In this document: piece by piece, positions 6,084 through 61,648 of the stretch | Numbering within the stretch: the stretch's first letter is position 1 | Layout of the letters: each line of letters starts with the position of its first letter | NCBI GenBank assembly: GCA_015179045.1 | Contig: WHUZ01000105.1 | Coordinates: forward strand, 1-64,000 | From: Kalaharituber pfeilii | Lineage: Eukaryota; Ascomycota; Pezizomycetes; Pezizales; Pezizaceae | Length of the DNA: 64,000 nt | Direction: 5' to 3' | Translations under genes and position numbers: made by a program | Notes under the pieces: model-generated | Databases searched by the model: none | The model's input: only the letters and a program-made list of their open reading frames with translations | What the model was told of the DNA's origin: nothing

Positions 6084-6282
6084 TTTCCAGCTTCTGTTTG
6101 TTCGTCAGATAACCTCGCATACAGGCGACCAACTGCCGGCGCCGACAACAACCACCTCAGGACGAGCGTTTGGAAGCGACTCCACAACCACAACGTCCCC
6201 CCGCTGAAACCTACATAGATCGAAAGCTCTCAACGAGCTGAGTCTTTTGATCTAATTTTCTTTCCTAAATACCCGACACTGC

Positions 6283-6306
6283 AAATTTCCCCCAGGGGTG
6301 AAATTT
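6283..6306 (+). promoter_or_regulatory. 5' UTR hairpin of half-LINE copy 1
   Basis: AAATTTC-CCCC / GGGG-GAAATTT can pair around a short loop with one bulged T. The equivalent hairpins are TTTCCCC-CGA-GGGGAAA at 7618-7634 in copy 2 and GCG...CCCC-CGA-GGGG...CGC at 60326-60353 in copy 3. Outer stem bases differ between copies while pairing is kept. Confidence 0.55.
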
Positions 6307-6403
6307 CGAGGATCTTTCAGCTCACCACGGCCGTTGCCACGTACCACCCCGGCGCCAAGCACCAATAGACACCCACCGATAAGCAGACAACAGCCAATAA
6401 GAC

Positions 6404-7318
6404 ATGCCACGGAGGGGAGGATTCCCACCGCGACCCACCAGGCCCATCACAGTGCCCTGGGACGCCATGACTTGGGAGGGAAAAGAAACCTTTTTCAGGA
6501 CCCTCACCGAATACTACAAACACCTCTACTACGGGCCAAACACCACTGACGGGCCGGAGAAGGGAGCCTATCTCGGCATCACCTTTACGGACAACCTAAC
6601 ACGCCCCGAAATCTGCTTCGCACCACCCACACCACGGCCACCACAGCCACCGCAGCCACCGGGGCTCAGCCCCATCCGGCACATAGACATCGAGCCGGCA
6701 CCGCCACCGCCACAGCAGCCACTGGGGCTCAGCCCCGTCGTGTGCATAGACATCCCGGCGCTTGAGCCACCTCCAGCCCCGGCACCGCCACCACCAGCAT
6801 TGGGCTTCAGCCCCATCACGTGCTGCGAAACAACAGCACAAACACCTTCGACCAAAAAGACAAAGACGAAGAGGAGAAAGACAAAGAAAACGACAAAGAC
6901 ATCCTCCGCCCCGGTCGAAAAGCAGGCGGCTTCCCCAAGCCCCACACCACCCACACCAACCCCCGACCCAACCCCAACACCCGCCTCCCCCGCACCAGCA
7001 CCATCCCGCCCACGCAACCAGACAACTCGCACCAGCCGTCCCCCTCCCCGACCTACGCAAGGCATCGTCATACACGGCGTGGCCCTGAGGAAGGATTTGG
7101 AGAAGGTAAGGCAATGGCTGGAAGTAGACAACAAAGAATTGGACAAAGCCACCACGGGCATCAGATGGCTGCGAAGGAAGACTACCTTAGAGGAGGAAGG
7201 AAAGAAGGCAAGTTCGGTAGTAGTATACACAAAGACAAGGGTGGAAGTTGGGAAGGTCAGACTTGGGGGGAAGTGGCTGAGATCGGAGGAGTACGAGCCG
7301 AACAGAAGGAGGGGATAG
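6404..7318 (+). CDS. Half-LINE ORF1-like protein (304 aa), proline-rich with C-terminal RRM-like domain
   Basis: The start is taken at 6404 because all three copies place ATG after CAATAAGA-like sequence. Residues 1-60 are unique to this copy. Residues 65-140 are proline-rich and hold three GLSP/GFSP motifs (GLSPIRHIDIE, GLSPVVCIDI, GFSPITCCET). A basic KTKTKRRKTKK stretch and a Pro/Thr linker follow. The C-terminal 85 residues (IVIHGVALRKDLEKVRQWLE, GIRWLRRKTTLEEEGKKASS, VRLGGKWLRSEEYEPNRRRG) match the RNA-binding ORF1 domain of fungal Tad1-type LINEs. There is no CCHC knuckle. The probable role is to bind the element RNA; this is inferred. Confidence 0.75.
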   Translation: MPRRGGFPPRPTRPITVPWDAMTWEGKETFFRTLTEYYKHLYYGPNTTDGPEKGAYLGITFTDNLTRPEICFAPPTPRPPQPPQPPGLSPIRHIDIEPAPPPPQQPLGLSPVVCIDIPALEPPPAPAPPPPALGFSPITCCETTAQTPSTKKTKTKRRKTKKTTKTSSAPVEKQAASPSPTPPTPTPDPTPTPASPAPAPSRPRNQTTRTSRPPPRPTQGIVIHGVALRKDLEKVRQWLEVDNKELDKATTGIRWLRRKTTLEEEGKKASSVVVYTKTRVEVGKVRLGGKWLRSEEYEPNRRRG

Positions 7319-7380
7319 GGAGGCTCGCTCTCCGGTCCACACACATGTACTTAGTGCGAATTTTCCTTTTGTATTTAAAC

Positions 7381-7410
7381 ATCGTCATAGCCCATAGGGC
7401 GGCATACGAT
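7381..7410 (+). promoter_or_regulatory. 3' terminal stem-loop of half-LINE copy 1
   Basis: Outer stem ATCGT/ACGAT, inner hairpin GCCC-ATA-GGGC. The inner C of the usual CGCC is T here and its partner G is A, a compensatory pair change unique to this copy. Probably the RNA element recognised by the LINE reverse transcriptase. Confidence 0.65.
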
Positions 7411-7472
7411 TAATGAAATAAAAAAAAAAAAAAAAAAAAAAAGGCGACCAACTGCAGCCTATGTCTAGTTGA

Positions 7473-9285
7473 CAGTCAACAACCACCTCAGGACGAGCGT
7501 TTGGAAGCAACTCCACAACCACAACGTCCCCTCCGCTGAAACCTACATAGATCGAAAGCTCTCAGCACGCTGAGCATTTTGATCCCATTTTTATCCCCAA
7601 AAAACTGACACTGAAATTTTCCCCCGAGGGGAAAGTTTTCGGGGATTCTTCAGCTCACCACCCTCGTTGCCACCACAACAACTCGGCGCCAAGCCCCAAT
7701 AGACTGCCACGGACAGGGATAAGACAACCAATAAAAATGCCGAAAAACCAAAAGTCTAAAAAGCCAGCTCCCCTCCGCGCGCCGCCGTCAGCCCAAAAGA
7801 TGGAGGATAGCAAAGAGGAATGGGATAAGTTCGTGAAGGAGCTTTTGAGTAAAGACGGGTCGGACAAGACAAAAAAGGAGGAGAAGAAAAGACAACTCGA
7901 GTCAGAAACGACTCCACTTACACAGGCAAACCTCAGTAAGTTGAAGGCAGCAACTCCCCCACCGAAACCCGCTCTGGCCCCAAAGCCTCCGTCACCACAG
8001 CCACCACAGCCACCAAAGCCACAGGGGACGGAGCCGCCACAAGCCACTCTGGCCCAACAGCCTCCGCCACCACAGCCGCCACAGCCACAGCGAACAAAGC
8101 CACAGGTGCCGAGTTCCCAAAACGACGAAGAAATGTTACCGGACTACGACACAATACTAGACAAGCTGGAAGAGGTGGACTTAGACATGGGAATAATCCT
8201 GGCTGTCAGATTCGCACGTTCCTGGGGAGAAGACATCACCCCGATAGAAGGGTGCACCCTCGCCGTGGAATTTTTAGACAACAAATACGAGAAGATCCGT
8301 TATACAAGCGGAGCTCCTCACGACCCATTCCCCCCGCACGGAAAACCACCGGCGACACCGAAACTGAATTTTAGCCCCGTCACGAGCATCCAGTTGGAGC
8401 CGTCGCCACCCCCACCACAGACACTGGGGTTCAGCCCTATCACGTCAATCGAGACAGAGCCGGTCCCAGAGCCGGCGCCGGGTACACCGAACACCCCGTC
8501 AACGAAGAAGAGGAAAGGCAAACAGCCGTCGCAGACAACACCGTACCAGATAAAGAGACAGCTGAACGGGAAAGAAGCCAGGAAAATCGCCTCCTCTCCT
8601 TCGATCGACAAACAGGGGGCTCCCCTGGGAGCCACCCCCACCACCACACCATCTATCGACGACCACAACACAAGGGACACGGTCCCACCGTCGGCCAAAA
8701 CCCCCTCACCAAAACCTAAAACCCCGACCCCCGAGCCTCCCAAGACCTCCGAGGCCCCCAAGACACCAGAGAAGACAACCCCACCGAAGAAGACCAAAAC
8801 ACCCACCGGAAAGACTGCCAAACAACCCGATCCAACATCGAGTCCCGACGCCACCACCTCGAAACACGGCGTCGTTGTCCACGGAATTGCCCTCAGAAAA
8901 GAACTGGGGAAGGTTCGACGATGGCTGGAAGATGGGAATCCGGATCTGGGAAATACGGTTGGAATAAGGTGGTTGAGAAAGAAGACGCTGTTGGTGGAGG
9001 AGGGGAAGAAGACAAGTTCAATCGTGGTGTACCTTGAGGGAAAGACCAGCGTGGAGAAGGTGAGACTGGGCGGGAAATGGTTGAGGGTCAGCACATACGA
9101 ATCGGACAGAGGGCGGAAGTGAAGGGAGACCCTTTTGTATGGACACCCGCAACATGTATAAGTACCGCGGGCACTACTTGCAGTTAGGCATAGTTACTCT
9201 TGTTTTCTTTTCTTCTAATAAATACCTCGCCATAGCCCATAGGGCGGCATGCGAGTAATGAAATTAAAAAAAAAAAAAAAAAAAA
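7473..9285 (+). mobile_element. Complete ORF1-only non-autonomous LINE (half-LINE), copy 2
   Basis: Exact 13-bp duplication TATGTCTAGTTGA (7460-7472, 9286-9298). The left duplication starts only 4 bp after the right duplication of copy 1, so two half-LINEs inserted next to each other in the same orientation. It has the same 5' UTR blocks as copy 1, one intact ORF (7737-9122), the stem-loop at 9226-9255 (CTCGC/GCGAG) and poly(A). Confidence 0.88.
7737..9122 (+). CDS. Half-LINE ORF1-like protein (461 aa)
   Basis: Lysine-rich N terminus (MPKNQKSKKPAP), charged segment, then proline-rich repeats. A middle region (about residues 135-195, ending FLDNKYEKIRYTSGAP) is absent from copy 1. NFSPVTSIQLE and GFSPITSIETE are the shared short motifs. 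TPYQIKRQLNGKEARKIASS matches NYQLKRQLSDEEAKKIAASG of copy 3. The C-terminal domain is VVVHGIALRKELGKVRRWLE, GIRWLRKKTLLVEEGKKTSS and VRLGGKWLRVSTYESDRGRK. The frame is fully open although neighbouring LINEs are broken, which suggests selection or very recent insertion. Confidence 0.77.
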   Translation: MPKNQKSKKPAPLRAPPSAQKMEDSKEEWDKFVKELLSKDGSDKTKKEEKKRQLESETTPLTQANLSKLKAATPPPKPALAPKPPSPQPPQPPKPQGTEPPQATLAQQPPPPQPPQPQRTKPQVPSSQNDEEMLPDYDTILDKLEEVDLDMGIILAVRFARSWGEDITPIEGCTLAVEFLDNKYEKIRYTSGAPHDPFPPHGKPPATPKLNFSPVTSIQLEPSPPPPQTLGFSPITSIETEPVPEPAPGTPNTPSTKKRKGKQPSQTTPYQIKRQLNGKEARKIASSPSIDKQGAPLGATPTTTPSIDDHNTRDTVPPSAKTPSPKPKTPTPEPPKTSEAPKTPEKTTPPKKTKTPTGKTAKQPDPTSSPDATTSKHGVVVHGIALRKELGKVRRWLEDGNPDLGNTVGIRWLRKKTLLVEEGKKTSSIVVYLEGKTSVEKVRLGGKWLRVSTYESDRGRK

Positions 9286-9298
9286 TATGTCTAGTTGA

Positions 9299-9904
9299 GA
9301 AACTACCTGCATATCCTACGTCCACGACGTACCTACCGCACGTTCCGCCCTCGGACTAGCCACATCTATGCTGGCGAACCATTCTGAGACCGGGTTGCCC
9401 TCCATGGAGCCCCTCTTACTTCATCCCTCTTCTGCTCTAGGTCCTCCCAACACTGCCAGACGCTACCTGCGCATGAAGCTTCTTCTTGGGCCGCTCCATC
9501 TCGACCTCCGCTGCCACCGGAAGAAAGTCAGCATGTGCTTATAGTTTCGACGAACCACGGATTCGGGGGATCTACCATCGGTTCAAGACTTGCTTGCCAT
9601 CCGTAACATGCCTTCTGTCAGTACCCGGGGAATTATTGTGGACTGGTTTCTAGATATCATTGAGCGCAACGAGCAACGAAAGTATGATACAGGGTTCAGG
9701 AGTTAAGACCATCACAGCCCAGAAACGCTACATACAGATAGTGACACAAAACAGATGTTCGGGCCCATCTTGGTACCAGGACTTGGGCTGCTTGTACCAA
9801 CAGCTCTGACTGTTGAAGAAGCTGAATTCGTCATCATCTGAAAGTGTGAGACGGATCAGTAATGAAGATCGGACTCATTCGCAGCAAGGAACTGAGAGAT
9901 CTCA
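9299..9904. other. Unassigned DNA between half-LINE copy 2 and the Mutator-like element
   Basis: I see no convincing ORF, repeat tail or LTR terminus. It is the original target DNA of the two half-LINEs and of the element that follows. Confidence 0.5.
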
Positions 9905-9913
9905 CGTACCTGC

Positions 9914-12030: not shown

Positions 12031-12165
12031 TTTTTTTTTTTTTTTTTTTTTTTTATTTCATTACTCGCGTGCCGCCTGATAGGCTACGGCGAGGTGTTAG
12101 GTACATAAAGAACAAATAGTAACTGATAAATCATAAAGAGACGTAGAGTGTGTGAAACAAAGAAA

Positions 12166-15100
12166 CTAGCTTGCTGCCCAGTCCAACACCTCAACCAGTT
12201 TCATCCCCTCCTTCTCCCCCTCTTTCTTTTTCCCCTTCTCCCCCCCCTTTGGCATCATTATCCCCGCCTCGCCTCCCGGTAATCTCTTCTTCCACGCCTC
12301 ACAGTCTTTCGTTATGTGTCTGTAATTCTCGAGGGCTTTTCCACACCACCTGCACTCCGGTGACTCTTCTTTTCCTATCTGGTATCTCCATTGTCTCAGT
12401 CCTTTGTCCCCCATTATGCCTGCGAGTGTGGACACCCTCCTTCTGGTCCCCAGGTATTCCAGTGGTCTGTACGTCAGTTGTAGCCTCTTCCTCTCCTCCC
12501 CTCTCCTGCTCTTTGCCTCTTGTCGGATGCCGGCCTCCGACACTGTCTCGTCCTGGTATTGTAACGCCGTGGCTACTTTGGCTGCCCTGTCCGCCGCGGT
12601 GTTACCCACTATCCCTTCATGTGCTTTAACCCACAGGAGCGCCAGGTCTCGGTCCCCTCTCGACGTCCTCTCCTCCCACCTTCTCCTCACCAGCTCCGCT
12701 GCACCCTCCGGCGTAAGGTCCCCCCTGGCTATCCCCTTCATCCTCGTCACCGTGGTCCTGGAGTCTGTGATAATTAGCAGCTCCCCCTCTCTCCGCATTG
12801 CCTCCCCAACCGCTATCAGCTCAGCATCATTGACCGTGCATCTTTCTCCCAGGTATATTGATGTGTCTTTCCCGGTCTGATGCACTCCAGTGCCCGTCTT
12901 GTCCTCCATTCTACTTCCATCTGTGTAAATGCTCGTCCACCCTTCATCTTCCTCCTTGGCTATTAGCCTCTCCCACTCCTCCCTACCTAAGTCAGATGGA
13001 TGTATCGGGTGTACATAGAGAGGAAGGGGGTCTTTATGCCCCAGCGACCCCCTCAGGTATCTGGTATCTGGCTGTGGTCTTCTGACTGGCTCTTCTTCAA
13101 ACCTCAGTGTTCGGGCTTCTACCCTGTCTGCCTCTCCATACACGAACGTCTCGACAGATTCCAGGTTAGTTAGCCCTTCCACCACGTCCCGTCTCGTCCC
13201 CCATGGGGCCCCCGTTATTTCTCTCGCCACAACGTATTGCCACTTCTCCAGCAATCTAAGCTTTCGTTCTGGGGGGGCGCCTTTTGCGTACCTCGCCCAT
13301 GCCCAGCAGCCCCAAGTAGCAATGTTCCTGGCTATGGCTGTGTACAACTGTCTCCTTTTAGCTGGGGGTACTCCGTTCAGTCTGGCTGCTACTCTCCACG
13401 CTGCTTTGCCTAGGTGTAACCGCCGATTAAAATGATCATCGAATTTCAACTCCCAATCGATGTACAGTTCTCCTAGCCTGTAACTCTCCCTTGAACCCGA
13501 TGATGATGGTTTCTGCTTTCTGTGGATCCAGTTCAAAGCCTTCCTCTGACGCTTCCATGGTCAGCTTCTCACGGTGTTCCCTTATGTCCCTCTTCAGCCC
13601 TCGGATGGACTTGTTTGATATCACACTGTGGAAATCATCCACATAGGACCTATTGAACTCTCGGCTTTCGGCCTTCTCCGCCACTGGTGCTATCGCCACT
13701 AGAAAGATAACCGGGGATAAGGGTGAGCCCTGGGGCGTTCCATCTGTCATTATACTTTCTCCTCTGGTTTTCCCATCCCATGTAAGCTGAAACTTCGTAG
13801 GTTGCAGAAACCCCTCAACAAATGCTGCTAAGTTCTTGTCTTCGGCCTCCAATCTCTGAACTACCTTCTCCCTTCGCAGGTGGTTGAATGCCGACTTGAT
13901 ATCATCCCCTACTATTGCCGTCCATTCCCCATTATCAAGGCGTTTATCCACCTCTTTTAGCACCTGTCTTTGTAGGTCCTCCATCCCCCGTTTAGGTCTA
14001 CTCCCCAGCTGAGTCTTACTGAATAGACGGTCCCTTCTCTGTATGATATTGGCTATTACCTTCTGTCCTAACTTAGCTACGGTATTCAGTAGCGTAATTG
14101 GTCTCCACCCTGCTGGGTCATCTCTTGGTCTTCCTTTCTTGTGAATCATAGTGACACTGAAGCCTCGTGCGAAATCATATTTCCCATTGACATAGTTTAC
14201 AATCTCCTCTCTGACTGCTTCTCCTAGTGTCGTCCCTTTCAGTAATTTCAGGATCCCATACTGTATCCCATCCGGGCCCGGTGCGGATCTGGATTTCGTC
14301 TTCGCCAGTGCCCTATCTATGGCTTGTCTTGCTTCTTTTTTGTCCATTAGTAGTCCGACTGGCTTCAGCCGTTGCCTTGTCTCAGCTATCTCTGTAGTGA
14401 CGAAGTTCCGTTTGATAAGTGCTTCCATAACCTCCTTGTCCGTACCTGGGATGTCCATAAGCTCCTGCTGTCTGAATGGGTCCCTTGCCAACTGAAATAT
14501 GTCCCACGGCGACGTTACTCGATCTTCTTCCATGTACCTTTCCCAGAATGCTCTCTTCTTCTCTCTGATAATGTCTCTCAACAGCCTCCTGGCCCTCGTC
14601 TTTTCTTCTCTGCTCCCTTTTCGTAGTATATACTTAACCATCTTCCTTGCCTCCTTCACCTCCTTATCGAACCACCGCTTTGACCGGTCCATAATGTGTA
14701 CGTCCTTAGTGAATGCTCTGCCTAGTCTGACTAGTAGTTCATATGCATTTGTATCTTCCTTCAGAGGCTTGTCCCCCCACTCCTGCACAAACTCCTCCCA
14801 CATCTCCCAGTCGGTGACCTTCAGAGTCTTATATATTGTCTCCTGTGTCTTGAGTCTCCCATATATCATTGCATGGTCCCCTCCCGCTATCCACGATATG
14901 CTCCTAGTCTCCCATTCCCCTCTCCGCGCGAACACCAAGTCCAACAGTGCTGTCCTCTCCACACCTTCTACTCTTCTCGTCCATGTCACCGTTCCCTTCT
15001 CGATCTGCTGATCCAACCCGTGGGCCCTCATGGTGTCCCTCAGGATCGTTCCCCTCTGGTTTCTCTTGTCACTCCACTCGTCGTGATGGCTATTGCAATC

Positions 15101-15454
15101 TCCAATCACTATGTCTGAGTCTGCTATCTCCTCTAGCTCTTCTGTCATGTTAGTGTCAGCATTCCATTATACTCCTGTAATCTTTCTTCCTCTGATATAA
15201 ACACTTATGTGTCGGTCTCCTCCTTGTACCCTAATGTCTTCGATTACGTCTCTCCTCGCATATGCTGAAATCTTTCCATTCTCCCCTGGTGAGTGGATTG
15301 TTGTGTATGATGGATGAAAAGTAGTCCCCCCTCTTGGTGCTCTCCAACTCTCCCCTACAAATATTATGTCTGCTCTCCTATCTGCCCCCTCCTGAAGCGT
15401 CAGGTCCGTCCCCTCGATGGACCTCCCTACATTCTGGTATAGTATGTTAATCAT
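12166..15454 (-). pseudogene. LINE A ORF2: AP endonuclease, reverse transcriptase, RNase H, zinc knuckle
   Basis: The ATG at 15454 overlaps the ORF1 stop as ATGA. In order: AP endonuclease (ILYQNVGR, DIIFVGESW, VIGDCNSHHDEWSD, GGDHAMI), reverse transcriptase (SAPGPDGIQYGILKLL, GDDIKSAFNHL, DGTPQGSPLSPVIF, SYVDDFHSV), RNase H (IYTDGSRMED, VNDAELIAVGEAM, IITDSRTT, LWVKAHEGIVGNTAADRAA) and CRWCGKALENYRHITKDC, a C-x2-C-x8-H-x4-C knuckle. Two breaks are visible: a TAA at about 15163 where copy D has Tyr (GVYWN), and one frameshift at about 13440-13530. All catalytic motifs survive. Confidence 0.88.
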
Positions 15455-18715: not shown

Positions 18716-19605
18716 TTTTTTTTTTATTTTTTTTTTTTTAAAAAAATCATTACTCGCATGCCGCCTGAAAGGCTATGGCGAGGTTTAAGTAAGTACATAT
18801 AGTTGAGAACATAGGAAATATTAAAATAACATTGGCATGATAACTCCACTAGTCCTGCCCCACCCATGTCAAGATTTCCGTCAAAAGGTCCCCTTCCTCC
18901 CCCTCTTCCTTCCCCTTTGTCTTCGGCGGCGTTTTCAGGTCCTCTAGTCCTCCAGGTATTCTCTTCTTCCATGCCGAGCAGGCCGTCGTGATGTGGCTCA
19001 GGTTTTCCGGTGCCCGTCCGCACCATTGACACTCGGGCGAGTCTGCCTTCCCTATCTTGTACCTCCATTCCCTGAGCCCCTTGTTTCCTAGTATGCCTGC
19101 CAAGATGGCCGTCAGATGTCTTCTCCCTAGCCTTTGTAGTGGTGGATACGCGAGCTTCAGGCGATCTCTCTCCTCTGCTCTGTAGGCTCTCATTTGTTGT
19201 CGTATGCCCGCCTCGGTGATGATTTCGTCCTGGTATTGAAGGGCGGTGCCGACCTTCGCAGCCTTGTCTGCTTTGGTGTTGCGGCACTGTTGCCTGAAAT
19301 GCCGACGTGTTCTTTGATCCAAAGGATGACCAGGTCGTGATCTCCGTTTGCGGTTCTGGCTTCCCATTTCTCCCTGACCACTTGTGCTGAACCGTCGGGG
19401 GTTGGGTCCCCTCTGGCTATGCTTTGCAGTTTGGCTATTGCTGTCCTGGAGTCCGTGAGTATCAGAAGTTCCCCGGGGGTGTCCATCGTGTGGCTTATAG
19501 CTATCAGCTCGCCGTCATTCACCGTGCTCCTATGTCCGAGGTAGAAGGAGGAGTCTGTGTCTGTGTCCTGTTGTACTACCTCTGCACCTGTAATGCCGTC
19601 CATGC
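18716..19605 (-). mobile_element. LINE C, 3' part (antisense, interrupted by LINE D)
   Basis: T-tract and stem-loop (CTCGC/GCGAG, inner CCTTTCAGG). ORF2 remnants: MDGITGAEVV, VNDGELIAISHTM, ILTDSRTAIAKLQS, LWIKEHVGISGN, ILGNKGLREWRYKIG, CQWCGRAPENLSHITTAC, ILTWVGQD. A frameshift lies near 19270-19360. At 19605 the copy is cut by LINE D and resumes at 26413. Confidence 0.85.
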
Positions 19606-20130
19606 CACACCTCTACAACCTTCTCGGGCCACGTCTAACGTCACGTGACCGAGGCCGTATCTCCACCGCCAGACATCGCATTGATTAGCAGACAACAGCG
19701 AACTACGCCCCCCGGCCCGACGGGCACGGGGATCCCAGGAAACACGCGAGATTCTACGGATTAGACACTTTCCCCTCGAATATTCGTCAGAACACTCAAA
19801 AGAGCCGGACTTACACAGCACACACCTACCTTCCAACTTCAGCGCAGTCGCGGAAACCCTCGACGGCGGGGGCCCCCAAAAACCCCCTCGACGACAACCC
19901 ACACCTCGAATAACACACCCGACGTGGCCCAAAGAGACTCGCACGATCCGGACTACCTGGAAGGGATCGGACTAACAAGAACAGCCCCAGCCCCGAACGA
20001 ATAGAGAACAGCCCTCACATTCCGACACACCACACCCCATTCCTCAGATCACATATCACAATTGAGACCACGACCAATAGGCAACGGCGACCACACAACC
20101 ACCCAGCCACGCATACAGTTAGGTCACGAC

Positions 20131-23002
20131 ATGACAAAGGCAGCAGCCACCGACAGGGGCCGCCACCCCACCCGCACAAGCACTCGCCTCCGCAACCGCA
20201 CCCAATCCACGGCAAGACCAGAAACCCGGAAACGCACCGGGAAAACCAAAGTCAATGGACTAGACTTTCACTACATTCGAGACTGGAAATCTAACGCAGA
20301 CCTGACCTTCATACAGGAAGACAGCCAGTGGACCCTCCACAGATACCAGGACATATTCAAACACGCAGCGGAGACGGACCCAAAAGCCGGTCAGAGGCTG
20401 GAAAAGGCGACCAAAGATAGCCGCCGCAAGAGGAAGAATAGCCTTGGACAGAGACCTGAACACATCAATCCGGGTCATCAGCATTGAAGACATCCAACAT
20501 GGGAGAGTCTCCACACAGGAGATCATTCAATTCATCGAGGAGAGCGAAGCTATGGACCCCAGACCCCCAGAGGACCAAATCGAGGACACAATCACGGTAG
20601 GAGGCCAACATATCATTCTCCCCCTCCACGACTTAGTCATCCCAGGCACACCACCCTACGAGGACACCTCGAGCGAGAGCTCCGAAAGAACAGTCGTCCC
20701 AGTCCCTACGACAGTACCCGCGGACACCCCGAGCGAGAGCGCAGGAGGATCAGTTATCCCAGCTCCGACAGCATCCTCGGAACACGGGTACACCCCAGTC
20801 CCAGAAGAGATCCGAGTCCGGGGAAGGGAATGGTACAACAGACAGGACGAGATTGCAGACAGTCAGCCCTCCGGGCCACCCGACAGCAAGATACTCGAGA
20901 GACTTGAGACCCTTGGGGAGAGGATCGCCACATCCGAAAACATGATAATCGGGAGAATCGAGGCACTAGAGAATTCATTGAAGTCGACACATAAAGACCT
21001 TGACAAAGGAACCCAAGTGGCGCACACAATCACGAGACAGGAAATCTCCGGGATAGTTCGAAACGCGGTCGCCGAAGAACGATACAAGAGAGAGAAACGC
21101 CAGACCGTCTGGGAAAACATGGTCAACGAATCCATGGACAACGTCATCAAAATCCTCACCAGACTGGAACACAGGTTCCTTTTTATCCCAGCCTCACCCA
21201 ACGACGTCCACAACACGAAGAAGATCTTGCCCCCCCTACCCGGCGAAAGAAGGGAGGCGGCACAAGGGACCCCCCCGGAACAGGAGAAGGAATCTTCAAC
21301 AGGCCCCTCTCCCCCGACGGGGAGAAAACCAGACAATATGAAGGGAATCGTTTACGACAACAGCAGCTTAGGCGACAGCCACCACACACACCAAGCCCAA
21401 GACCCGAAGACACCACCCAGGCCTCCATCCCCCAACATGGACTGGGACTACGAGAAACAAGGCACAAGTAGCAGCAAGTACGCACACATAGCCGAGATGG
21501 AGAGGGGAGGAAAAGCAGGCACAGCCCCAGCCCTCCCGAGAAGCAACCCGCCCACCGGCAGGCCTCCCCCCGCCCTCCCCGCCATGGAAAAGTCAGGCAC
21601 AGCGGCAGCCACGCCCGAAGCCGATGCAGAGACACCACCCAAAGACCCGATGGACTACACGCTTCAGGACGAAGGGATGAGCGGGAGCCAGCACGCATTC
21701 CAAGCCAAGATGGAAAAGATGAAGAAAGACTCAGAAGGGTCTCACACGATCACGCCCCACCCCTCCCACAAGGTCACCCTACTGAAAAGACCACAAGCAC
21801 AAGCTCCAGCCACCCAGAAGGAAACGGTCACACCGGACAAGGAGACAAAGGAACAGGACAGCACACAGTCCACCGCCCCCCCGGAAAAAAAACGGGAAAA
21901 GAAGGAAAAGAAACCCCCAACGGGCCCCGAGGACGCTCGAACGGAACCTACGCACAGGTGGCAGCCAGCCAAAAAGAGAGAACGGAACACGAGACAGACG
22001 AGGGCCCCTCACACAACTCCAGAGAAGGGTCAAGCGCCGAAGGCCCAGAGAAGGTGAAGGCAGTAGAAGCCCAACCAAAACACGGCTCCCAAGGAGGGAA
22101 GAAACCCCAAGCGACCGAACCTCAGGCGACCCACAACCCCCGAGAGTCCAATCTCATCCCCAAAGAAAGACTTTGGCAAGCCAGGATTCACAACGAGGAC
22201 AACTGGAACAAGAAAGGGTGGGCACACCCCAGAGAAGGCAACTCAGAAATGGAAAAGGCCAAGAACAGAATCAACGCCATCCTAGGCAAGGATGCCCCAT
22301 ACCAGGTCCGAAGAGTCATCCTAGACCAATCTTTCCCAGAAGAAAGGATCCTCCTGATGACGGACACGGAGTACCGCCAAGGCCCCAGAGACCTCTCACA
22401 TTTGGAAAAGGCGGTCAAAAGATACAGCCCCGGAGCCAGAACGGATTGGGACAGCAGACTGGTAGAGTTGGTCACCTTCGACATCGGGATGCACGAAGAC
22501 CAAGGTAAAGTCGACCGGGACCTACGCATCGAGAACCCCGGGGAAATGTCATACCGAAAAGTCAGAAGACTACACAACCACCAAGTACCAGCCCGGGAAG
22601 GCAAACCCGCCTTTTCTATCTTCGTCTCGGACAACGTGGTACAAATACTCAAGAAAGGGCTACAATTCCGCGGCGAGAGAATCCGATGCCTGCTGAGAGC
22701 CGACTTGGGCAAGGAAAAAGCAGACAAAGCACGCAGGTACAGATACACAGACTCCGAAGGGTACTGCAACCACTTCCTGGTGGGACAAGTCATAGAATGG
22801 GTCCCGAAGCAAAAGTATCTCCCGGAATGGCTCAGAAGGTCCCCGAGAAAGGAACGAGGCAGAAGAGCCAGTCAACCTCAACGGCAGACCGTTCAGACAG
22901 ACTTGCCACGACTGCCGACAGAGAGGCGGCCACCTGCCAGGCTGCCAACTTCCAAACCGTCCCCGTAGGGCACCAGAGCCGGAGAACTCCCGCAATGATT
23001 AA
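20131..23002 (+). pseudogene. LINE D ORF1 (gag-like) with three frameshifts
   Basis: The start MTKAAATDRGRHPTR at 20131 follows GACATG. Frame changes lie near 20415, in 21958-22057 and near 22848. In order: basic N terminus, HYIRDWKSNADLTFIQEDSQ, a helical middle (about 20880-21180), a proline/charged linker, WQARIHNEDNWNKKG, LVELVTFDIGMHEDQG, FVSDNVVQILKKGLQFRGE, RYRYTDSEGYCNHFLVGQVI, and a zinc knuckle CHDCRQRGGHLPGC in the last frame. The ORF stops at TAA 23000-23002, within the ORF2 start region (ATGATTAA). The role is RNA binding and RNP assembly, by family knowledge. Confidence 0.8.
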
Positions 23003-26000
23003 AGTCATATACCAGAACGTGGGGAGGGGAATCGTGGGGACGGACATCACGCTACAAGAGGGAGCATCAAGGAAGGCGGATATTATATTCATCGGAGAAG
23101 GTTGGGTCGCACCAGGAGGAGGGACAACATTCCACCCGTCGTTCACCACAATCCACACGCCCACCAAGACGGGGGGTCTGGCAGCCTACGCCAGGAAAGA
23201 CATAGCCGCAGACATTCGGGTAGAAGGTCAGGACAGGCACGTTTCAGTCAACTACAGGGGAAGGAAGATCACCGGGGTTTACTGGAACAAGGACACAGAC
23301 ACAGAATCTGAGCTGGAAAAGATAGGGGCAGCAGACCTAGTCATAGGGGACTTCAACAGCCAGCACCGGGAATGGTCAGACAAACAGGACACCAGAGGGA
23401 CAGCATTACACGGACACATGGAGGCACACGGACTCAGACAGCAATTACACAAGGGTACGATCACCTGGTCCAGACAGGTGAACGGTTCCCAGAGGAAGGC
23501 ACTCCTGGACCTGGTTTTCGCGAGAGAACAAGAATGGAGAACCAACGAGATCACGTGGATCGCCGGCTCCGACCATGCCATGATCATCGGCCAGCTCCTT
23601 GCCCCAAACCGGGGCACGATTCGGAAGATCAAGGTTACAGACTGGGAAAAGTGGGAGAGATACATCGAGGAACACGGAGAAGACGTCATAGTCCCAGGCA
23701 GTGCATACCTAACCCTCACCAGACTAGGACAGGAATTCACCAAGGACGCCCACATCATGGACAGATCCAAAAGGTGGTTCGACAAGGAGGTTAAGGAGGC
23801 CCGGAAAATGACGAAGTACATCCTCCGCAACCCCGGGAACAGCACCGCCGAAAAGAACCGGGCAAGAAGACTTCTCCGAAACATTATTCGGGACAAGAAA
23901 AAGACGTACTGGGAAAACTTCCTCCAGGAGAATCGGGTAGAGTCCCCCTGGGACATCTTCCGCCTAGCTCGAGACCCATTTCGATCTCGCCCCCTTATGG
24001 GCATCGAAGGACCGGACGACCAGATCGCAGAGATTCTTATCCGGCACAACATCATCACCGAACCCCCGGAGGATGAGACACCACGAAGAACCAGAGGCAT
24101 CACGCTCGACAAGACACTCGCCAGGGCAGAAATAGAGAAAGCCCTCACCAGCGCCAAATCCAAATCGGCTCCGGGCCCCGACGGCATCCAGTACGGAGTC
24201 CTGAAACTCCTGAGGAAGACAACCCTCTGGGAAGCCCTCAGGGAGGAGATCGTGGAATACCTAAATGGGAACCACGGGTTCGCCAAAGGCTTTAACATGG
24301 TCATGATCCTCAAGAAAGGGAAGCCCCGAGATCAACCCGGGAGCTGGCGTCCCATCACGCTTCTAAACACAGTCGCCAAGCTGGGACAGAAGGTCATGGC
24401 CAAAGCTATACAGAGGAAGGACGAACTGTTCAGGGAATCACAACTGGGCAGCCGACCCTTCCGGGGAAGCGAGGATCTCCAGAGACAGGTTCTGAAAGAG
24501 GTCGACATACGGCTCAAAAAGAGGGAATGGACGGCACTGGTAGGAGACGACATTAAAGCAGCATTCAACCACCTGAGACGGGACAAAGTAGTCTCAAGGC
24601 TGGAACGCCTGGACCCAAACATAGCCAGCTTCGTTCAAGGGTTCCTCCAACCCACACAATTCTCCATATCCTGGGACGGGAAGGCACGCGGGACGGGAAC
24701 GATGACGGACGGGGCCCCGCAGGGGTCACCTCTCTCCCCGGTCCTGTTTCTGGTGGCGGTCGCACCAGTCGCGGAGAAAGCCGAAAAAAGCCAGTTCACG
24801 CGCTCCTACGTCGATGACTTCCACAGTGTGATCTCCAGCAGCTCGATGAGACAACTACGAAAAGACATAGACACTCACCGCAGGACACTGGCCCAAGAAG
24901 CATCCAAGGAAGGCTTCGAGCTGGACCCTCGGAAAGTAGAGACGCTGATCATAGGTACCCAAGGACCGAGTTATCGATTGGTTGGGCTGTCGGTCGATTG
25001 GGAACTGAAATACGAGGAACACTTCCGGAAAAGGCTGAACCTAGGGAAGGCGGCCTGGGGCATCGCACGGAGACTACATAAAATCCCCCCGAGCAAGAGA
25101 CGACAGTTATACACCAGCATAGCGAGAAACATCGCAACATACGGCTGCTGGGCCTGGCAGGACTTCGCCAAGGGAGCACCAGTCCAGAAGAAACTCAGAC
25201 AACTGGAAAAATGGCAATACTGTATCGCCAGAGACATCATAGGCGCCCCCTGGGGTACCAGAAGGGACACGGTAGAGGGAATAGTCAACCTAGAATCGAT
25301 CCAAACCTTCGCAAACGGGGAAAGAGATCGCGTCGAGGCCCGATCCCTGAGGTTCCCCGACGAACCTCTCCTAGACCCTTCCGCAGACACCATATACCTA
25401 AGAGGCGATCTCTCCCACCGGACCCCCATCCCCCTACATATCTTCCCCACACTCCCTAGCGACACGAGCCGGGAGAGATGGGAGGAAGTCATTCAAGCCG
25501 AAGAAGAGGAAGGTTGGAAAGGGGTCTACACGGACGGAAGCCGCATAGACAACCTCACCGGGGCGGGAACACACTCTCGCGGACAGGAAGAGTACATATA
25601 CCTCGGCAGATGCAACACCGTCAACGACGGAGAAATGATCGCAATTGGCAAGGCCCTCAACACCGAAGGGGAACTCATGATCCTAACCGACTCGCGCACA
25701 GCAATTCCAGACTACAAAAGATAGCCAACGGCGACCCAAACGCCGAAGGCTCATCCATGGCAGTTCGACAGGCATGGGAAGAGAGGACCAGACGCGGCGA
25801 CCTAGACACAGCTGTCATGTGGGTCAAGAGCCACATAGGGATAGTGGGGAACTCCAAGGCGGACAAGGCAGCCAGGACGAGCACAGCCATCCAGTACGAA
25901 GACGAAATGGTCACGGAGGCGGGTATAAGACAAGAAGCCAAAAGACTCAGAGCAGAAGAACGCAATCGTCTGGGACTATCATACAGACCCCTCCAGACAA

Positions 26001-26254
26001 TCGACAACCGAAAAAGATTATCCACCCTGGCAGGGATCCTCGGGAACAAGGGCCTCAAGGAGTGGAGACACCGCATAGGCCAAGCCGATTCACCGGAGTG
26101 TCGATGGTGCGGGAGAGCCCTGGAAAACCTGACGCACATATCCAACGATTGCGCCCCTTGGCTCAGGAGGATGAGAGGAGGGGCTGAAAGCCTCACACAT
26201 CCGGACAAAGACATCAACATGGCGGAGATATTGGACTGGGCGGGGAAAGAGTAA
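22995..26254 (+). pseudogene. LINE D ORF2: AP endonuclease, reverse transcriptase, RNase H, zinc knuckle (one frameshift)
   Basis: ATG 22995. Endonuclease: MIKVIYQNVGRG, ADIIFIGEGW, VIGDFNSQHREWSD, AGSDHAMI. Reverse transcriptase: SAPGPDGIQYGVLKLL, WRPITLLNTVAKLGQKV, VGDDIKAAFNHL, DGAPQGSPLSPVLF, RSYVDDFHSVI. RNase H: VYTDGSRIDNLTGAG, VNDGEMIAIGKAL, ILTDSRTA, MWVKSHIGIVGNSKADKAA. Zinc knuckle: CRWCGRALENLTHISNDC. It ends ILDWAGKE. Total is about 1,086 codons. One base appears to be missing near 25703, so the frame from the RNase H active site onward is shifted. Apart from that, ORF2 is intact. Confidence 0.9.
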
Positions 26255-26336
26255 ACTTGGGACTTAGAGCGGGCGGGGATATCTCAGTTTTTCATATTAT
26301 TCTTTTCATTCTCATTTCACATTATGTATCTAAAAC

Positions 26337-26366
26337 ATCGCCATAGCCTTCGAGGCGGCATGCGAT
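26337..26366 (+). promoter_or_regulatory. LINE D 3' terminal RNA stem-loop
   Basis: Outer stem ATCGC/GCGAT encloses the inner hairpin GCCT-TCG-AGGC, followed by TAATGAAAT and poly(A). Sense copies of the same structure: 5575-5604, 7381-7410, 9226-9255, 29899-29928, 41012-41041, 42201-42230, 49964-49993, 57667-57696, 61592-61621. Antisense copies lie next to T-tracts at about 2306, 12058, 17571, 18748, 36437, 37325, 38822, 41562, 50401 and 62023. The first pair of the stem is C-G or A-T, changing together. Probable reverse-transcriptase recognition element. Confidence 0.75.
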
Positions 26367-26412
26367 TAATGAAATAAAAAAAAAAAAAAAAAAAAAAAAA
26401 TGCCGTCCATGC

Positions 26413-29623: not shown

Positions 29624-30415
29624 TGTCACAGCCCACCTACGCACGCATCGATATCATCCTTTTCCGCAGCCGACCAGTCAAGCCGAGCCGACGACCAGCT
29701 CGGTCGTGGTGTATTTGGAGGAGGAGAAAGACATAGACAGAGTCAGGTTAGGTGGGAGGCTTTTGAGGACCACTCAATACGAGCCGGACAGGCGGAGGAA
29801 GTAGGCTGTATTGACCACCCGCATCATGCACGAGAATCGCGGGCTCCACATGTATTTAGTTGAGGCTTTTCTTTTACTAACTTTCTTTAATAAAGACCCT
29901 CGCCATAGCCCGTTGGGCGGCACGCGAGTATTGATATAAAAAAAAAAAAAAAAAAAAAAGCCGAGCCGACGTGCCAAGCCGGAAGGTGAGACATTACTAA
30001 TAGCCGACTCGGAAAGGCTTGACAAGCCGTCCCAGTCCGGTTGATTAGCCCTCTGACAGCTCATTGATATGCCTTCCAATATTAGCATCACTATTGCCGT
30101 TCTTGCATTCCGGATTCTCTTTCTCATATCGTTATAGTCCTGTATTCCCTTTCTATGTCAATTCCCCAGCATATAAGGCCCCAAGCCCGCCTCTGTAGAT
30201 AGCTCTTCTTCTCCTTGTCCGTTGTCTTGTTAATCAATAGACCCGTCTGGTTTCTCCTACTCCTCCGCCGCTGCCCTTGCTATAGTCCGTGATCCCTAGC
30301 CACCGAACCGCCGCCGCCGTAGTCCTCGACCCATAGCCGCCGAACCGCCGCCGATACCCAAGCTGACCGTACCCCTTGGCAAGACCTCCGCCCAAGCCCA
30401 GCCACCGACGTTACA
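29624..30415 (+). mobile_element. Candidate solo LTR, with a half-LINE fragment inserted
   Basis: Termini TGTCACAGCC and CGACGTTACA, near-duplication ATCAG (29619-29623) / TTCAG (30416-30420), and an internal CATATAAGGCCCC TATA-like box near 30170 followed by pyrimidine-rich sequence, as in fungal gypsy LTRs. The duplication is imperfect and there is no second LTR to compare, so this is tentative. Confidence 0.4.
29694..29957 (+). mobile_element. 5'-truncated half-LINE fragment
   Basis: Duplication AAGCCGAGCCGACG (29680-29693, 29958-29971). It keeps the last 37 codons of the ORF1-like domain (SSVVVYLEEEKDIDRVRLGG, then RLLRTTQYEPDRRRK), a stop, the 3' UTR, the stem-loop 29899-29928 (CTCGC/GCGAG, inner GCCC-GTT-GGGC) and poly(A). 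It proves a fourth insertion of half-LINE type or of an ORF1-bearing relative. Confidence 0.82.
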
Positions 30416-57390: not shown

Positions 57391-57403
57391 AATCAATATA
57401 TGA

Positions 57404-57725
57404 AAACTGGAAGACTCCCCCCTACATTGAAAAAGACACACTCATTGGAGAGGGCAAGAAGACCAGCTCCGTCGTGGTCTACTTGGAGGACCCTCAAGAC
57501 ATTGACAGGGTGCGACTTGGAGGGAGATGGCTCAAGGCGAGCCAGTACGAGGCGGAGAGAGGAAGGAGATAAGACAGACTGCTGGCCGTTTTCCCCGCAA
57601 CACACATACAGACCCGCGGGCCCCATGTATTTAAGTTTAGTTAGTTACTTTCCTTTTAAATAAAACCTCGCCTTAGCCCGTAGGGCGGCATGCGAGTAAT
57701 GAAATAAAAAAAAAAAAAAAAAAAA
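57404..57725 (+). mobile_element. 5'-truncated half-LINE fragment
   Basis: Exact duplication AATCAATATATGA (57391-57403, 57726-57738). It keeps the end of the ORF1-like domain (GEGKKTSSVVVYLEDPQDID, RVRLGGRWLKASQYEAERGR), stop, 3' UTR, stem-loop 57667-57696 and poly(A). This is the fifth element carrying this C-terminal domain directly before a LINE tail. Confidence 0.85.
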
Positions 57726-57738
57726 AATCAATATATGA

Positions 57739-58079
57739 GTAACCAAGGAGTAGATTAGCTCTTGCCTTACATCCATGCAAATATCCGAGATGAAACTCTT
57801 ATAACTGATGCCCCGCTGCTGAAGACCTCAATTCACTCCGTTATGCTCCAGAGCCATTCAACTCACTACTACTTGTATCTAGCTGCCCATTTACACGACG
57901 GACCACTATCTACAAGGGTGTAATTGGTTAGACAACCGCGGAATTCTATTTATTTGCTTCTTCCCCCTCCACCCTGTTGTTTTCAAGAAGTCAAGTTGAA
58001 AGTTTCACTTTACGTTGGCCTCTTTTTCCCTTTCTGATACTTACATGTCTTCCACATCTCCACCGCTTACTACTAGCCT
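57739..58079. other. Unassigned DNA
   Basis: No feature recognised. Confidence 0.4.
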
Positions 58080-58541: not shown

Positions 58542-59028
58542 CCACGGGTTCGCCTAATTTGAGACATTTACGGTCACTGAAGAGATCGCAAGGAATATTA
58601 TAATTGCCACTCTGATGTAGAAAGTGGTGTATCCCAGTCTGTCGATGTGTTTAACGTCATTGCATCACCAATGCTTTTATTGCTGCTTACGGCACTCGAT
58701 CGTATGAAGAGCTCCAGCGCTATCCTCCCCTTTATCGCCGGTGGAGGGATTTTTTTCTTTTGGGGCAAGCGAAGACGTGGGTAGAGGGCCACAGGAGCGG
58801 GAGGTTGGCAGATTACTGGAGACATTGCTTTGGTGAAACCCGCGTAGTGGGCAAAGAAAGTGATAGGGCTACAATGTGGTGTATCTGTCGAGCTTGAGAA
58901 GACTGATATTTTCCTAAGAACCTTGTAGCTGTTTTGTCAATACAAACAGAGAGAATTCGTCAACCCTCTGCTAGAGCACTTCAGACACAACAATATATAA
59001 CGGGATATTGTATAGCGAGCTGGGTGTT
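58542..59028. other. Unassigned DNA
   Basis: No feature recognised. A short minus-strand open frame (58598-58825) has no motif. Confidence 0.4.
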
Positions 59029-59859
59029 ACGGCTAAGGCAAGACTTACGGGATACCGACCCGAGAAGCACCGCCAGTTCCGTATAAGTCGTGTGCTGAAC
59101 ATGTAGCTGATCACTACTAGGCAACGCATGGAACACTATGGGCCCGAGACACGGCGGTCGCCTATAGAAGTGTGTCAAGCAGTAAGTCATACAGACTAGC
59201 AACTGCACATGGTTTACAAACTAAGATGCGTACATGCATTAGTCGCTACTGACCTTCCTAATGTATGTTTCTACTACGTCTCCTTATCTACATGTCTTAT
59301 CTATATTCATCATGTCATTGTCATATCATGTTGATGGTCAGGAAGTCTATATAAACGGGCCGAATAGATAGCTAGAAGAAATCAAGACACTAGCGGTGTT
59401 CTAAGTTGAACTCTCACTTAATGCTCTCGCATAACCTTTTGCCGTCCGCTTCGCTGCCTTCGTGAACCCGGACTCGCCTCAGTGCCACTCTCGCGAGCCC
59501 AGCGACGCCTACGCTAACACTGGGTAAATAGCTCCACGCTAAAAGGTGACCTCTGACAAGCATTTCGGGATGTCGGTACAATGTATACGGGTAAAAAGGA
59601 TGCGACCTGAGTGCGTATTGCAGTCTCAAAAGTGTATATAAGTGGTGTTCATGGCTGTGTGTTCTCCTTTCCTTTTCTCTGTACGCAACCTCTTGTATTT
59701 AGTTTCTACTAAGTAGAGTGGTTATCTGCTGTGCCGACCCGCTGAACTGCTGTGAACCGCCTTACCGCTGCGAACTGCTGAACCGTCGCCTGCCGCCTCC
59801 TGCCTGCCTGCGCTCCGTAGATCGCCGTCATCCACGGGCCCTAGACCACGACTGCCGTT
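59029..59859 (+). mobile_element. Possible solo LTR (weak)
   Basis: TGTTACGGCT at the left and TGCCGTTACA at the right are near-inverted TG..CA termini, with a GTATATAAGTGG box at about 59634 followed by pyrimidine-rich sequence. The flanks CTGGG / CAATA do not match, so this may be chance. Confidence 0.3.
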
Positions 59860-60160
59860 ACACAATAACAAAAGGAAAAGGAGGCAGCAAAGAAAGCGAA
59901 GGAAGCTCTACAAAAGGGCAAAAAAGCAGCACAAGCCCAACGGGTTGCTGGTCGTCAAGAAAGCCATTGATTCCCATGTGTGATATGATTCTTCTCTATT
60001 TGAGATCATTTTCTTTTGTCTTTTTGGCTCTCTAACATATGTTGCTTCTTGCTCTCTTGGATATCACTATAGGCTTTCATTTAATTGCAATAGCGTCTTT
60101 GGTCTTTCCCATACCATGTTAATCTTCGGTATATACACATTACTTAAGCTTCCTCATCGG
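59860..60160. other. Unassigned DNA
   Basis: A short lysine/alanine-rich frame (KEKEAAKKAKEALQKGKKAA, near 59875-59960) could be a transposase C-terminal remnant, but this is not supported by other motifs. Confidence 0.3.
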
Positions 60161-60177
60161 GTACTAGTCACTTCTTG

Positions 60178-61648
60178 GATGGCCAGCCTTCATCCGACGG
60201 TGTAACAATCTCTCCGACCGCATAAGCGCCTCATCAACGTCCTACCCGCTGAAACCTACATAGATCGAAAGCTCTCGGTGAGCTGAGCACTTTGATCTAA
60301 TTTTCTTTCTCAAATACCCAACACTGCGGTTTTCCCCCGAGGGGTTAAATCGCGAGGAATCCTCAGCTCGACACCCCGTTGCCAGCACACCAACCAAATC
60401 CCTGTCTCTGCCAAGACGCCACCCACACACTCAATAAGATGTCGAAGACTGCGCCATTCTACGTAAGGGAATGGCAGGGGACTCTCGCACAGTTGGGAGC
60501 CGCCAGAATCACTCCGATCAAAGTCTTCCAGGCGTTATGGAGGCATGAGAGGAGGCAGGCATATATTGATGAGGGCGCCACACTAATAATCACGGGGCTC
60601 AGGGGCAATGAAATGACCGTCTGGGCCTTGGATAAAGGGGACCCACTCCCCGCCGGGTTTGCAGACGCGTTCTTGCCGGCGGAGCGACCGTCGCCACCGC
60701 CACCTCCACCACCACCACCACCGCCACCACCACCACCGCCACCGCCACCACCGCCACCGGTACTGGGATTCAGCCCCATCACGTGCGTGGAGACCCAACC
60801 GGAGGATCCAGCGCCACCACCACCACCACCACCACCGCCACCACCACCACAATCGCCATCTATCTTGGGGAAGCGAAAGGCGGTCCCACCCACCCCCAGT
60901 CGTAAGAGGAAGGGGAAGATGCCTGCGCCCGACTACAACTATCAATTGAAACGCCAACTCAGCGACGAGGAGGCGAAGAAGATTGCGGCGTCGGGTACGT
61001 CACAGCCACCACCAGCACCACCATCTCAGCCACCAACGCCTCCTCCGCCATCGGGCAAAAGGGAGGCGCTTCCGAGTCAAGAGAAGGCTTTTCAGAGCCA
61101 CCAAGCACGCCGGCGGTCCGGCAATAAGGGACCCACCGCCACCACCACTCCACCGGCCAAAACCGATGCCAAAACAAGAGGTAAACACGGCATTGTGATA
61201 CACGGAATTGCCTTGCGGAAGGACCTGGGGAAGGTAAAGGCATGGCTGGAGGCCTCGAACCGGGATCTGGGAAAGATAGACGGTATTCGCTGGCTAAGGA
61301 GGAAGACAATCTTGGTGGAGGAAGGCAAGAAGACGAGCTCGGTGGTGGTATTCTTGGGGAAGGAGGTGGAAGTGGAAAGGGTGAGGTTGAGCGGAAGATG
61401 GTTGAAGGCGGTCCGTTATGAGCCGGAGAGGGGAAGGGTGTAGGGGATCATATCGGACTCCACCCGCGCTATTGAAGAAGTCTGCGGGCATTACATGTAG
61501 TTAGAACTGATAGGGGGGTTTAGGATTGGTGCTTTTAGGCGGGAATGTTTCTGTCGTGGTTTTTAACTTTCTCTTTATTTTTTAGCACAACATCGCCATA
61601 GCCCTTAGGGCGGCCTGCGATTAATGATAAAAAAAAAAAAAAAAAAAA
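60178..61648 (+). mobile_element. Complete ORF1-only non-autonomous LINE (half-LINE), copy 3
   Basis: Exact 13-bp duplication TAGTCACTTCTTG (60165-60177, 61649-61661). 5' UTR with CCGCTGAAACCTACATAGAT-type block and hairpins shared with copies 1 and 2, one intact ORF (60439-61443), stem-loop 61592-61621 (ATCGC/GCGAT, inner GCCC-TTA-GGGC) and poly(A). The first 60 bp differ from copies 1 and 2, so it is a distinct subfamily. Confidence 0.88.
60439..61443 (+). CDS. Half-LINE ORF1-like protein (334 aa), polyproline-rich with RRM-like C terminus
   Basis: An upstream in-frame ATG (60379) exists, but 60439 has the CAATAAGATG context used by the other copies. Residues 1-75 form a compact charged domain (PFYVREWQGTLAQLG, RITPIKVFQALWRHERRQAY). 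Two long polyproline runs flank VLGFSPITCVETQPED, the motif shared with copies 1 and 2. Next NYQLKRQLSDEEAKKIAASG, a linker, and the C-terminal domain (GIVIHGIALRKDLGKVKAWL, IRWLRRKTILVEEGKKTSSV, RVRLSGRWLKAVRYEPERGR). No zinc knuckle. Probably an RNA-binding or RNP protein acting for the element (inference). Confidence 0.76.
   Translation: MSKTAPFYVREWQGTLAQLGAARITPIKVFQALWRHERRQAYIDEGATLIITGLRGNEMTVWALDKGDPLPAGFADAFLPAERPSPPPPPPPPPPPPPPPPPPPPPPVLGFSPITCVETQPEDPAPPPPPPPPPPPPQSPSILGKRKAVPPTPSRKRKGKMPAPDYNYQLKRQLSDEEAKKIAASGTSQPPPAPPSQPPTPPPPSGKREALPSQEKAFQSHQARRRSGNKGPTATTTPPAKTDAKTRGKHGIVIHGIALRKDLGKVKAWLEASNRDLGKIDGIRWLRRKTILVEEGKKTSSVVVFLGKEVEVERVRLSGRWLKAVRYEPERGRV

Follow-up and report, generated by a model that had tools for sequence, protein, structure and literature searches.

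How can a retroelement that encodes neither an endonuclease nor a reverse transcriptase (RT) multiply, and why would its single reading frame remain open? This question is raised by the first 64,000 nucleotides (nt) of contig WHUZ01000105.1 (assembly GCA_015179045.1) of the desert truffle Kalaharituber pfeilii, a stretch referred to below as the window. Three complete insertions in the window, A, B, and C, resemble long interspersed nuclear elements (LINEs) that consist of only the first open reading frame (ORF1), and are called half-LINEs here. Analysis of these insertions and their relatives makes it probable that half-LINEs are a non-autonomous LINE family of K. pfeilii, which would use the ORF2 protein of LINEs in trans and its own ORF1 protein in cis.

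The first-pass annotation, made from the window sequence alone, had described three complete elements with exact target site duplications (TSDs) and uninterrupted frames, as well as two truncated copies, and all of these coordinates and frames hold (Table 1). As a control for ORF length, each element was subjected to 500 single-base shuffles, in which the longest ORF averaged 81 to 87 amino acids (aa), with maxima of 238 to 263. The common blocks reported for the 5' untranslated regions (5'UTRs) of A, B, and C were recovered at 78 to 83% pairwise identity (blastn), and the stem-loop and poly(A) said to follow each ORF were found in all three, while the first ~57 nt of C are unlike the family 5' end. 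The proteins of A, B, and C had no Pfam match to an endonuclease or RT at E values up to 1, in agreement with the earlier description, and no Pfam match to a zinc knuckle (CCHC). The elements sit amid numerous LINE remnants. Among 21 poly(A)-bearing tails in the window, half-LINEs account for 5, another 9 come after matches to LINE ORF2 or RNase H, and 7 lack an assigned body. An Rfam scan of the window returned no family at gathering score. Three Rfam matches in positions 6130 to 9300, considered as a possible ribozyme or known RNA, had E values of 1.9 to 2.8, far under gathering, and were taken as chance.

Half-LINEs have a constant order of parts, with variable 5' bases followed by the conserved 5'UTR, ORF1, a short 3'UTR, the tail stem-loop, and poly(A). 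ORF1 mostly starts 150 to 220 nt downstream of the 5'UTR block, and full-length ORFs were selected for having an ATG 140 to 235 nt after it. A CCCC/GGGG hairpin was found by exact core search in 23 of 26 distinct 5'UTRs, with altered cores in the other 3, and RNAalifold gave a weak consensus for 64 5'UTRs (−9.6 kcal/mol). Within ORF1, an N-terminal module is followed by a proline-rich linker and an RRM-like C-terminal domain, and motifs include LGFSPIT repeats, KRKGK, and YxIKRQLSDEEAKKIA. Modeling of the C protein predicts an RRM fold for the C-terminal domain, as in RRM-type ORF1 proteins such as LINE-1 ORF1p. The N-terminal module spans ~60 residues with a pattern that recurs by eye, and would form two helices and then a hairpin according to a low-confidence model. 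This module is highly divergent, with a mean proportion of nonsynonymous differences (pN) of 0.49 versus 0.19 in the RRM domain, and the different N-termini resemble divergent forms of a single short domain.

Searches of the K. pfeilii assembly (78.03 Mb, 360 contigs; G000 in the coordinates below) indicated a large family. A 16-base 5'UTR block occurred at 388 sites with at most 1 mismatch (reversed control, 0), spread over many contigs among the first 100 of these sites, and half-LINE protein matches numbered at least 156 with 120 of 2,441 candidates scored. The LINE-type tail pattern occurred at 6,832 sites (control, 0); in 78 Mb, and with variable loops among 100 listed tails, this points to a very expanded LINE superfamily in the truffle. 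In a protein search that reaches only proteins sharing short words, all 19 homologues of the C ORF1 were hypothetical proteins of K. pfeilii, as were all 41 matches to a 20-sequence ORF1 profile.

Loci L001 to L090 together with the window yielded 90 RRM-domain rows, in which A is present three times and C twice, leaving 87 distinct copies; because the loci were partly picked by protein match, this set is biased toward open frames. The RRM domain had no internal stop in 87 of the 90 rows. A tail lay no more than 471 nt past the stop in 86 rows (83 of the 87 distinct copies; range, 70 to 471 nt), too close for an ORF2 to fit, and in 83 of these 86 the gap was 70 to 199 nt. A copy with ORF2 downstream, proposed earlier as something to look for, was not found in this non-exhaustive search. 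No tail was found in 4 rows, and every repeated row (A and C) had one. Both 5'UTR and tail were present in 61 of 90 rows, and 25 of the 86 tail-bearing rows lacked the 5'UTR block, like truncated copies. Among 30 loci found by the 5'UTR alone, 11 had an intact full ORF, 25 had an RRM-domain match, and 29 matched half-LINE coding sequence in some way, counted from the top four matches at each locus. Within groups of near-identical copies, whose TSDs differ, divergence was 0.3 to 1.3%, or 1.7 to 2.3% in one group.

The RRM-domain frame is under purifying selection. Ratios of nonsynonymous to synonymous divergence (dN/dS) were calculated by the Nei-Gojobori method for 71 distinct rows of the 90, after identical, cut, and stop-bearing rows were dropped. 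The ratio was 0.144 at dS values of 0.2 to 0.4 (61 pairs), 0.137 at 0.4 to 0.7 (53 pairs), and 0.15 to 0.18 at 0.7 to 1.5 (525 pairs), staying within 0.14 to 0.19 over the dS range of 0.05 to 1.5; dS was saturated in 1,121 of 2,485 pairs. A ratio near 1 in the shared domain, which the first-pass annotation had named as grounds for abandoning the idea, was therefore not observed over this range. For the most similar sequences the ratio rose to 0.46 (dS 0.02 to 0.05; 9 pairs) and 1.6 (dS below 0.02; 32 pairs), as expected for young copies no longer evolving under selection. A control subset of 22 sequences (element B and 21 from loci found by the 5'UTR) gave 0.13 to 0.18 over the dS range of 0.05 to 1.5 from 24 pairs only, and 1.26 below dS 0.05 (2 pairs), with 133 of 231 pairs saturated. 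When this alignment was shifted out of frame, pN/pS was 1.13 and 1.45, versus 0.27 in frame. In alignable pairs of the N-terminal module (aa identity of at least 40%), the ratio was mostly 0.2 to 0.5 (range, 0.15 to 1.01), a comparison in which L056 and L089 have odd frames. These ratios, along with the absence of a found ORF2-bearing copy, support the earlier proposal of a non-autonomous lineage with its own RNA-binding protein.

A property newly seen here is that half-LINEs look like mosaics of exchangeable parts, since trees of the 5'UTR and the RRM domain conflict almost completely. For example, A and L026 are 99.4% identical over 180 nt of 5'UTR, after which identity drops, their N-terminal modules being 31% identical and the silent sites of their RRM domains saturated. 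The N-terminal module of L032 has 78 to 79% aa identity to those of L045 and L049, yet RRM dS is 1.9, and L033 and L080 have 76% identity in this module, yet RRM dS is 2.4. Tree tests used 25 elements, with near-identical copies and L056 removed. The first RRM alignment was gappy and the test was redone on codon rows, where L004, L072, A, and C were represented by the identical or matching sequence of another copy or row. Trees of the 5'UTR and RRM domain had 1 of 22 splits in common, and each data set rejected the tree of the other with log-likelihood losses of 306 and 610, compared to 13 common splits and losses of 20 to 26 between contiguous halves of the RRM domain, or 9 splits and losses of 36 to 51 between random halves. 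Distances behaved alike, as Mantel correlation was −0.05 (p = 0.76) between 5'UTR and RRM domain and 0.68 (p = 0.0002) between RRM halves, and the nearest neighbor was the same for 3 of 25 and 9 of 25 elements, respectively. Halves of the 5'UTR conflict as well (random, 4 splits in common and losses of 37 and 62; contiguous, 2 splits and losses of 62 and 216; Mantel r = 0.16, p = 0.15; same nearest neighbor in 7 of 25), which argues against a simple two-module picture and suggests exchange, or the noise of short alignments, inside the 5'UTR also. Template switching is our preferred cause of the mosaics, and gene conversion may be an alternative; recombination of LINE-1 with other RNAs has been described in mammals (PMC13174262).

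The insertions themselves carry further evidence of how half-LINEs move. Exact TSDs of at least 11 bp flank 43 distinct half-LINE insertions, one of which (L033) lies within repeated sequence. In the 38 of these with a placeable consensus 5' end, 0 to 45 extra bases (median, 4.5) precede it, the longest extras being in L060 (45 nt) and L033 (41 nt). At L008 (positions 972 to 1013), a LINE-type tail fragment separates the left TSD from the 5' end of the half-LINE, and so arrived in the same insertion event. Its best window matches are the tails of the LINEs ending at 12032 and 61998 (95% of 39 nt); the resemblance to half-LINE tails is lower (82% to B). Template jumps or RNA joining are possible sources of the 5' extras, including this fragment.

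The tail stem covaries and is common to half-LINEs and LINEs. Of 52 distinct half-LINE tails, 40 have C-G as the outer pair and 12 have A-T, and the 8 distinct LINE tails are split evenly (4 each). Stems are imperfect in both groups, with pairs 4-27 and 5-26 each broken in 1 and pair 10-20 in 2 of the 52 half-LINE tails, and pair 13-17 in 1 of the 8 LINE tails. A pyrimidine (C or T) precedes the TSD in 41 of 42 half-LINEs and in 24 of 25 other tail-bearing insertions (TSD of at least 12 bp), a weak link because the ambiguity of poly(A) excludes A by construction and because the second set mixes LINEs with truncated and a few complete half-LINEs, only three being LINEs by their bodies. The covarying common tail and the LINE-type tail at one 5' junction are indirect signs that the LINE ORF2 protein may mobilize half-LINEs in trans.

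Table 1. Coordinates of half-LINE and LINE features in the window
Feature	Positions	Strand	Remarks
Half-LINE A, complete	6137..7442	+	Exact 13-bp TSD 6124-6136 / 7443-7455; GGCGACCAACTGC
Conserved 5'UTR of half-LINE A	6144..6403	+	
ORF1 of half-LINE A	6404..7318	+	304 codons, single terminal stop
RRM-like C-terminal domain of half-LINE A	7058..7315	+	Domain alignment; fold via model of C
LINE-type 3' tail stem-loop of half-LINE A	7381..7410	+	Poly(A) next
Half-LINE B, complete	7473..9285	+	Exact 13-bp TSD 7460-7472 / 9286-9298; TATGTCTAGTTGA
ORF1 of half-LINE B	7737..9122	+	461 codons, single terminal stop
RRM-like C-terminal domain of half-LINE B	8862..9119	+	Domain alignment
LINE-type 3' tail stem-loop of half-LINE B	9226..9255	+	
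LINE D, full length	19606..26398	+	TSD 19592-19605 / 26399-26412
LINE D ORF2	22686..25724	+	Endonuclease, RT, start of RNase H (RNase H under Pfam cut-off)
5'-truncated half-LINE	29694..29957	+	Exact 14-bp TSD; ends with the family's C-terminal domain
5'-truncated half-LINE	57404..57725	+	Exact 13-bp TSD; ends with the family's C-terminal domain
Half-LINE C, complete	60178..61648	+	Exact 13-bp TSD 60165-60177 / 61649-61661; TAGTCACTTCTTG
ORF1 of half-LINE C	60439..61443	+	334 codons, single terminal stop
N-terminal module of half-LINE C	60472..60690	+	Predicted helices 13-19, 26-36, strands 48-55, 58-64; low confidence
RRM-like C-terminal domain of half-LINE C	61183..61440	+	Residues 251-330; block means of predicted local distance difference test (pLDDT) 90-95
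LINE-type 3' tail stem-loop of half-LINE C	61592..61621	+	

A candidate member of the enzyme-donor superfamily is the full-length LINE D, which has the same tail stem and an unrelated 5'UTR, and whose ORF2 matches RVT_1 at 6e-22 (Pfam). Nearly all recognizable LINE ORF2 copies in the window had been described as broken in the first-pass annotation, and copies that are open over most of ORF2 exist elsewhere in the genome (for example, C307 and C332; 99% identity over residues 49 to 1008 and 91 to 1008). The first-pass annotation had found the 5'UTR and the proline-rich N-terminal part to look unlike LINE D, and the 5'UTR and ORF1 of half-LINEs are indeed distinct from those of LINE D, ORF1 giving a weak profile match only; a fold model of the LINE D ORF1 built from two sequences had a mean pLDDT of 40. 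This distinctness bears on the possibility that half-LINEs are internal-deletion products of a full-length LINE with the same 5'UTR and ORF1, extant or recent in the genome, much as HAL1, which retains only ORF1, arose from L1 several times in mammals (PMC5753468). The half-LINE tail is LINE-like, and a mother element could have been missed, as 45 of 2,540 LINE ORF2 and 120 of 2,441 half-LINE candidates were scored. We nevertheless regard such an origin as unlikely, because the half-LINE 5'UTR and ORF1 are unlike those of LINE D, ORF1 runs straight to the tail in 86 of 90 rows, and the extent of silent-site saturation in the RRM domain makes the ORF1-only lineages seem old.

ORF1 is interrupted in both LINE D copies that were read, at different places, as might be seen if half-LINE ORF1 protein served LINEs in trans while LINEs supplied the ORF2 protein. 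This mutualism is very improbable, given two observations on LINE frames. LINE D 19606-22868 and its 99%-identical counterpart at G000:C307:142000-145300 (~3.26 kb) are separated by 3 substitutions along with five indels of 1 bp and a gap of 21 bp, an excess of indels suggesting that some LINE frame breaks may be assembly errors and that broken frames should be read with caution. In addition, LINEs apparently retain an ORF1 of their own, since the only pair compared, LINE D with the LINE at 12032-17458, was equally constrained in the RRM part of ORF1 (pN/pS, 0.26/0.86) and in ORF2 (0.24/0.80). Least probable of all is that the copies are a family of host genes, or a domesticated protein, and that the repeats are incidental. 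Dozens of copies annotated as hypothetical proteins and one gene model in which a HET-like protein runs into the RRM domain might suggest this reading, but it is refuted as the main explanation by separate TSDs at 43 distinct insertions and runs against the tail and poly(A) in 86 of 90 rows, 25 of them without the 5'UTR block in the manner of truncated copies.

Several unusual arrangements were encountered among the copies. L003 (G000:C29:123632-124420), with a 1,004-aa open frame, was considered as an autonomous partner and rejected, as it reads as a 5'-truncated half-LINE fused in frame; the half-LINE part is joined to the apparent ORF1 of another LINE. The 5' part of L016 contains a match to the 3' coding end of LINE D and a second tail inside a near-identical half-LINE copy, possibly a nested insertion or a chimera. 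Protein P0027 (BDZ91DRAFT_809209, 770 aa) is a HET-like gene model ending in a half-LINE RRM domain, with a Pfam HET match just under its cut-off and no RT match, and is possibly a gene-model artifact or an exonized element.

If half-LINEs are a family that borrows LINE enzymes, half-LINE RNA would be translated, and the ORF1 protein would bind its own RNA, acting as chaperone and importer. An ORF2 protein from the LINE D superfamily would then recognize the common tail and nick the target, and the RNA would be copied by target-primed reverse transcription. Jumps of the RT between templates, among co-packaged half-LINE RNAs, would shuffle 5'UTR, N-terminal module, and RRM domain into mosaics. 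That a parasite keeps ORF1 under selection would become understandable if the protein served chiefly the RNA that encodes it. A bolder proposal, to which we give somewhat less than an even chance, is that half-LINEs form a recombining swarm resembling a segmented virus, in which ORF1 protein would pack several RNAs, the borrowed LINE RT would switch template, and the 5'UTR, the fast-evolving N-terminal module, and the conserved RRM domain would reassort freely. If true, such a swarm would let an element without enzymes stay ahead of host silencing and switch between LINE partners, and would account for the selection on ORF1.

In pairs of LINEs and short interspersed nuclear elements (SINEs), the 3' tail common to a SINE and its partner LINE is the recognition signal, and SINEs are not known to encode a protein. 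Half-LINEs are alike in tail sharing and differ by encoding a protein under selection, with an RRM-domain dN/dS of ~0.14 at dS 0.2 to 0.7. They also differ from autonomous LINEs, whose endonuclease and RT are encoded within the element itself, in having 70 to 471 nt between stop and tail (86 of 90 rows). To our knowledge, ORF1-only LINEs are known only from mammals and Drosophila, and a literature search covering leading titles and the starts of abstracts found no such family in fungi. A non-autonomous retrotransposon of Blumeria encodes a peptide that is reportedly ROPIP1. That element is likewise fungal and enzyme-less, and differs in that its product is described as an effector peptide, not as a selected RNA-binding protein of the ORF1 type (PMC6022598). 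The EKA genes of Blumeria and the ORF1 of its Satine and Kryze LINEs likewise provide a fungal genome with large numbers of copies derived from ORF1, but are described as deriving from two-ORF LINEs whose ORF1 has a CCHC domain, some having become effectors (PMC4641428); the proteins of half-LINEs A to C lack a CCHC match, and their ORF1 had no Blumeria homologue among proteins sharing short words.

The closest parallels are HAL1 and HeT-A. Mammalian HAL1 is described as ORF1-only, with poly(A) and TSDs, and as needing the RT and endonuclease of full-length LINEs (PMC5322556, PMC5753468), and the HAL1-like layout claimed for A, B, and C is borne out in each of its structural features. HAL1 derives from L1, whereas half-LINEs have their own 5'UTR, a divergent ORF1, a fungal host, a structured LINE tail, and a strongly mosaic appearance. 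No Pfam L1 ORF1 family was found in the A, B, and C proteins at E values up to 1, and distant kinship would fall below the sensitivity of these Pfam and protein searches. HeT-A of Drosophila is a Gag-only non-LTR (long terminal repeat) element without pol, thought to use the RT of another element (PMC5537684); it transposes onto telomere ends, where it forms arrays without a nick or TSD, whereas half-LINEs are dispersed, with TSDs at 43 insertions. Half-LINEs work like HAL1 and HeT-A and are not classed here with either, as they show no sign of L1 ancestry in these searches and are not telomeric.

With many dozens of copies in one genome, the half-LINEs of K. pfeilii permit tests at the codon level. 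They are elements without enzymes that keep an RNA-binding protein under strong selection, which makes the proposed cis action of ORF1 protein, and its benefit to a parasite of LINE RT, testable, and their mosaic structure suggests frequent exchange of parts among retroelement RNAs.

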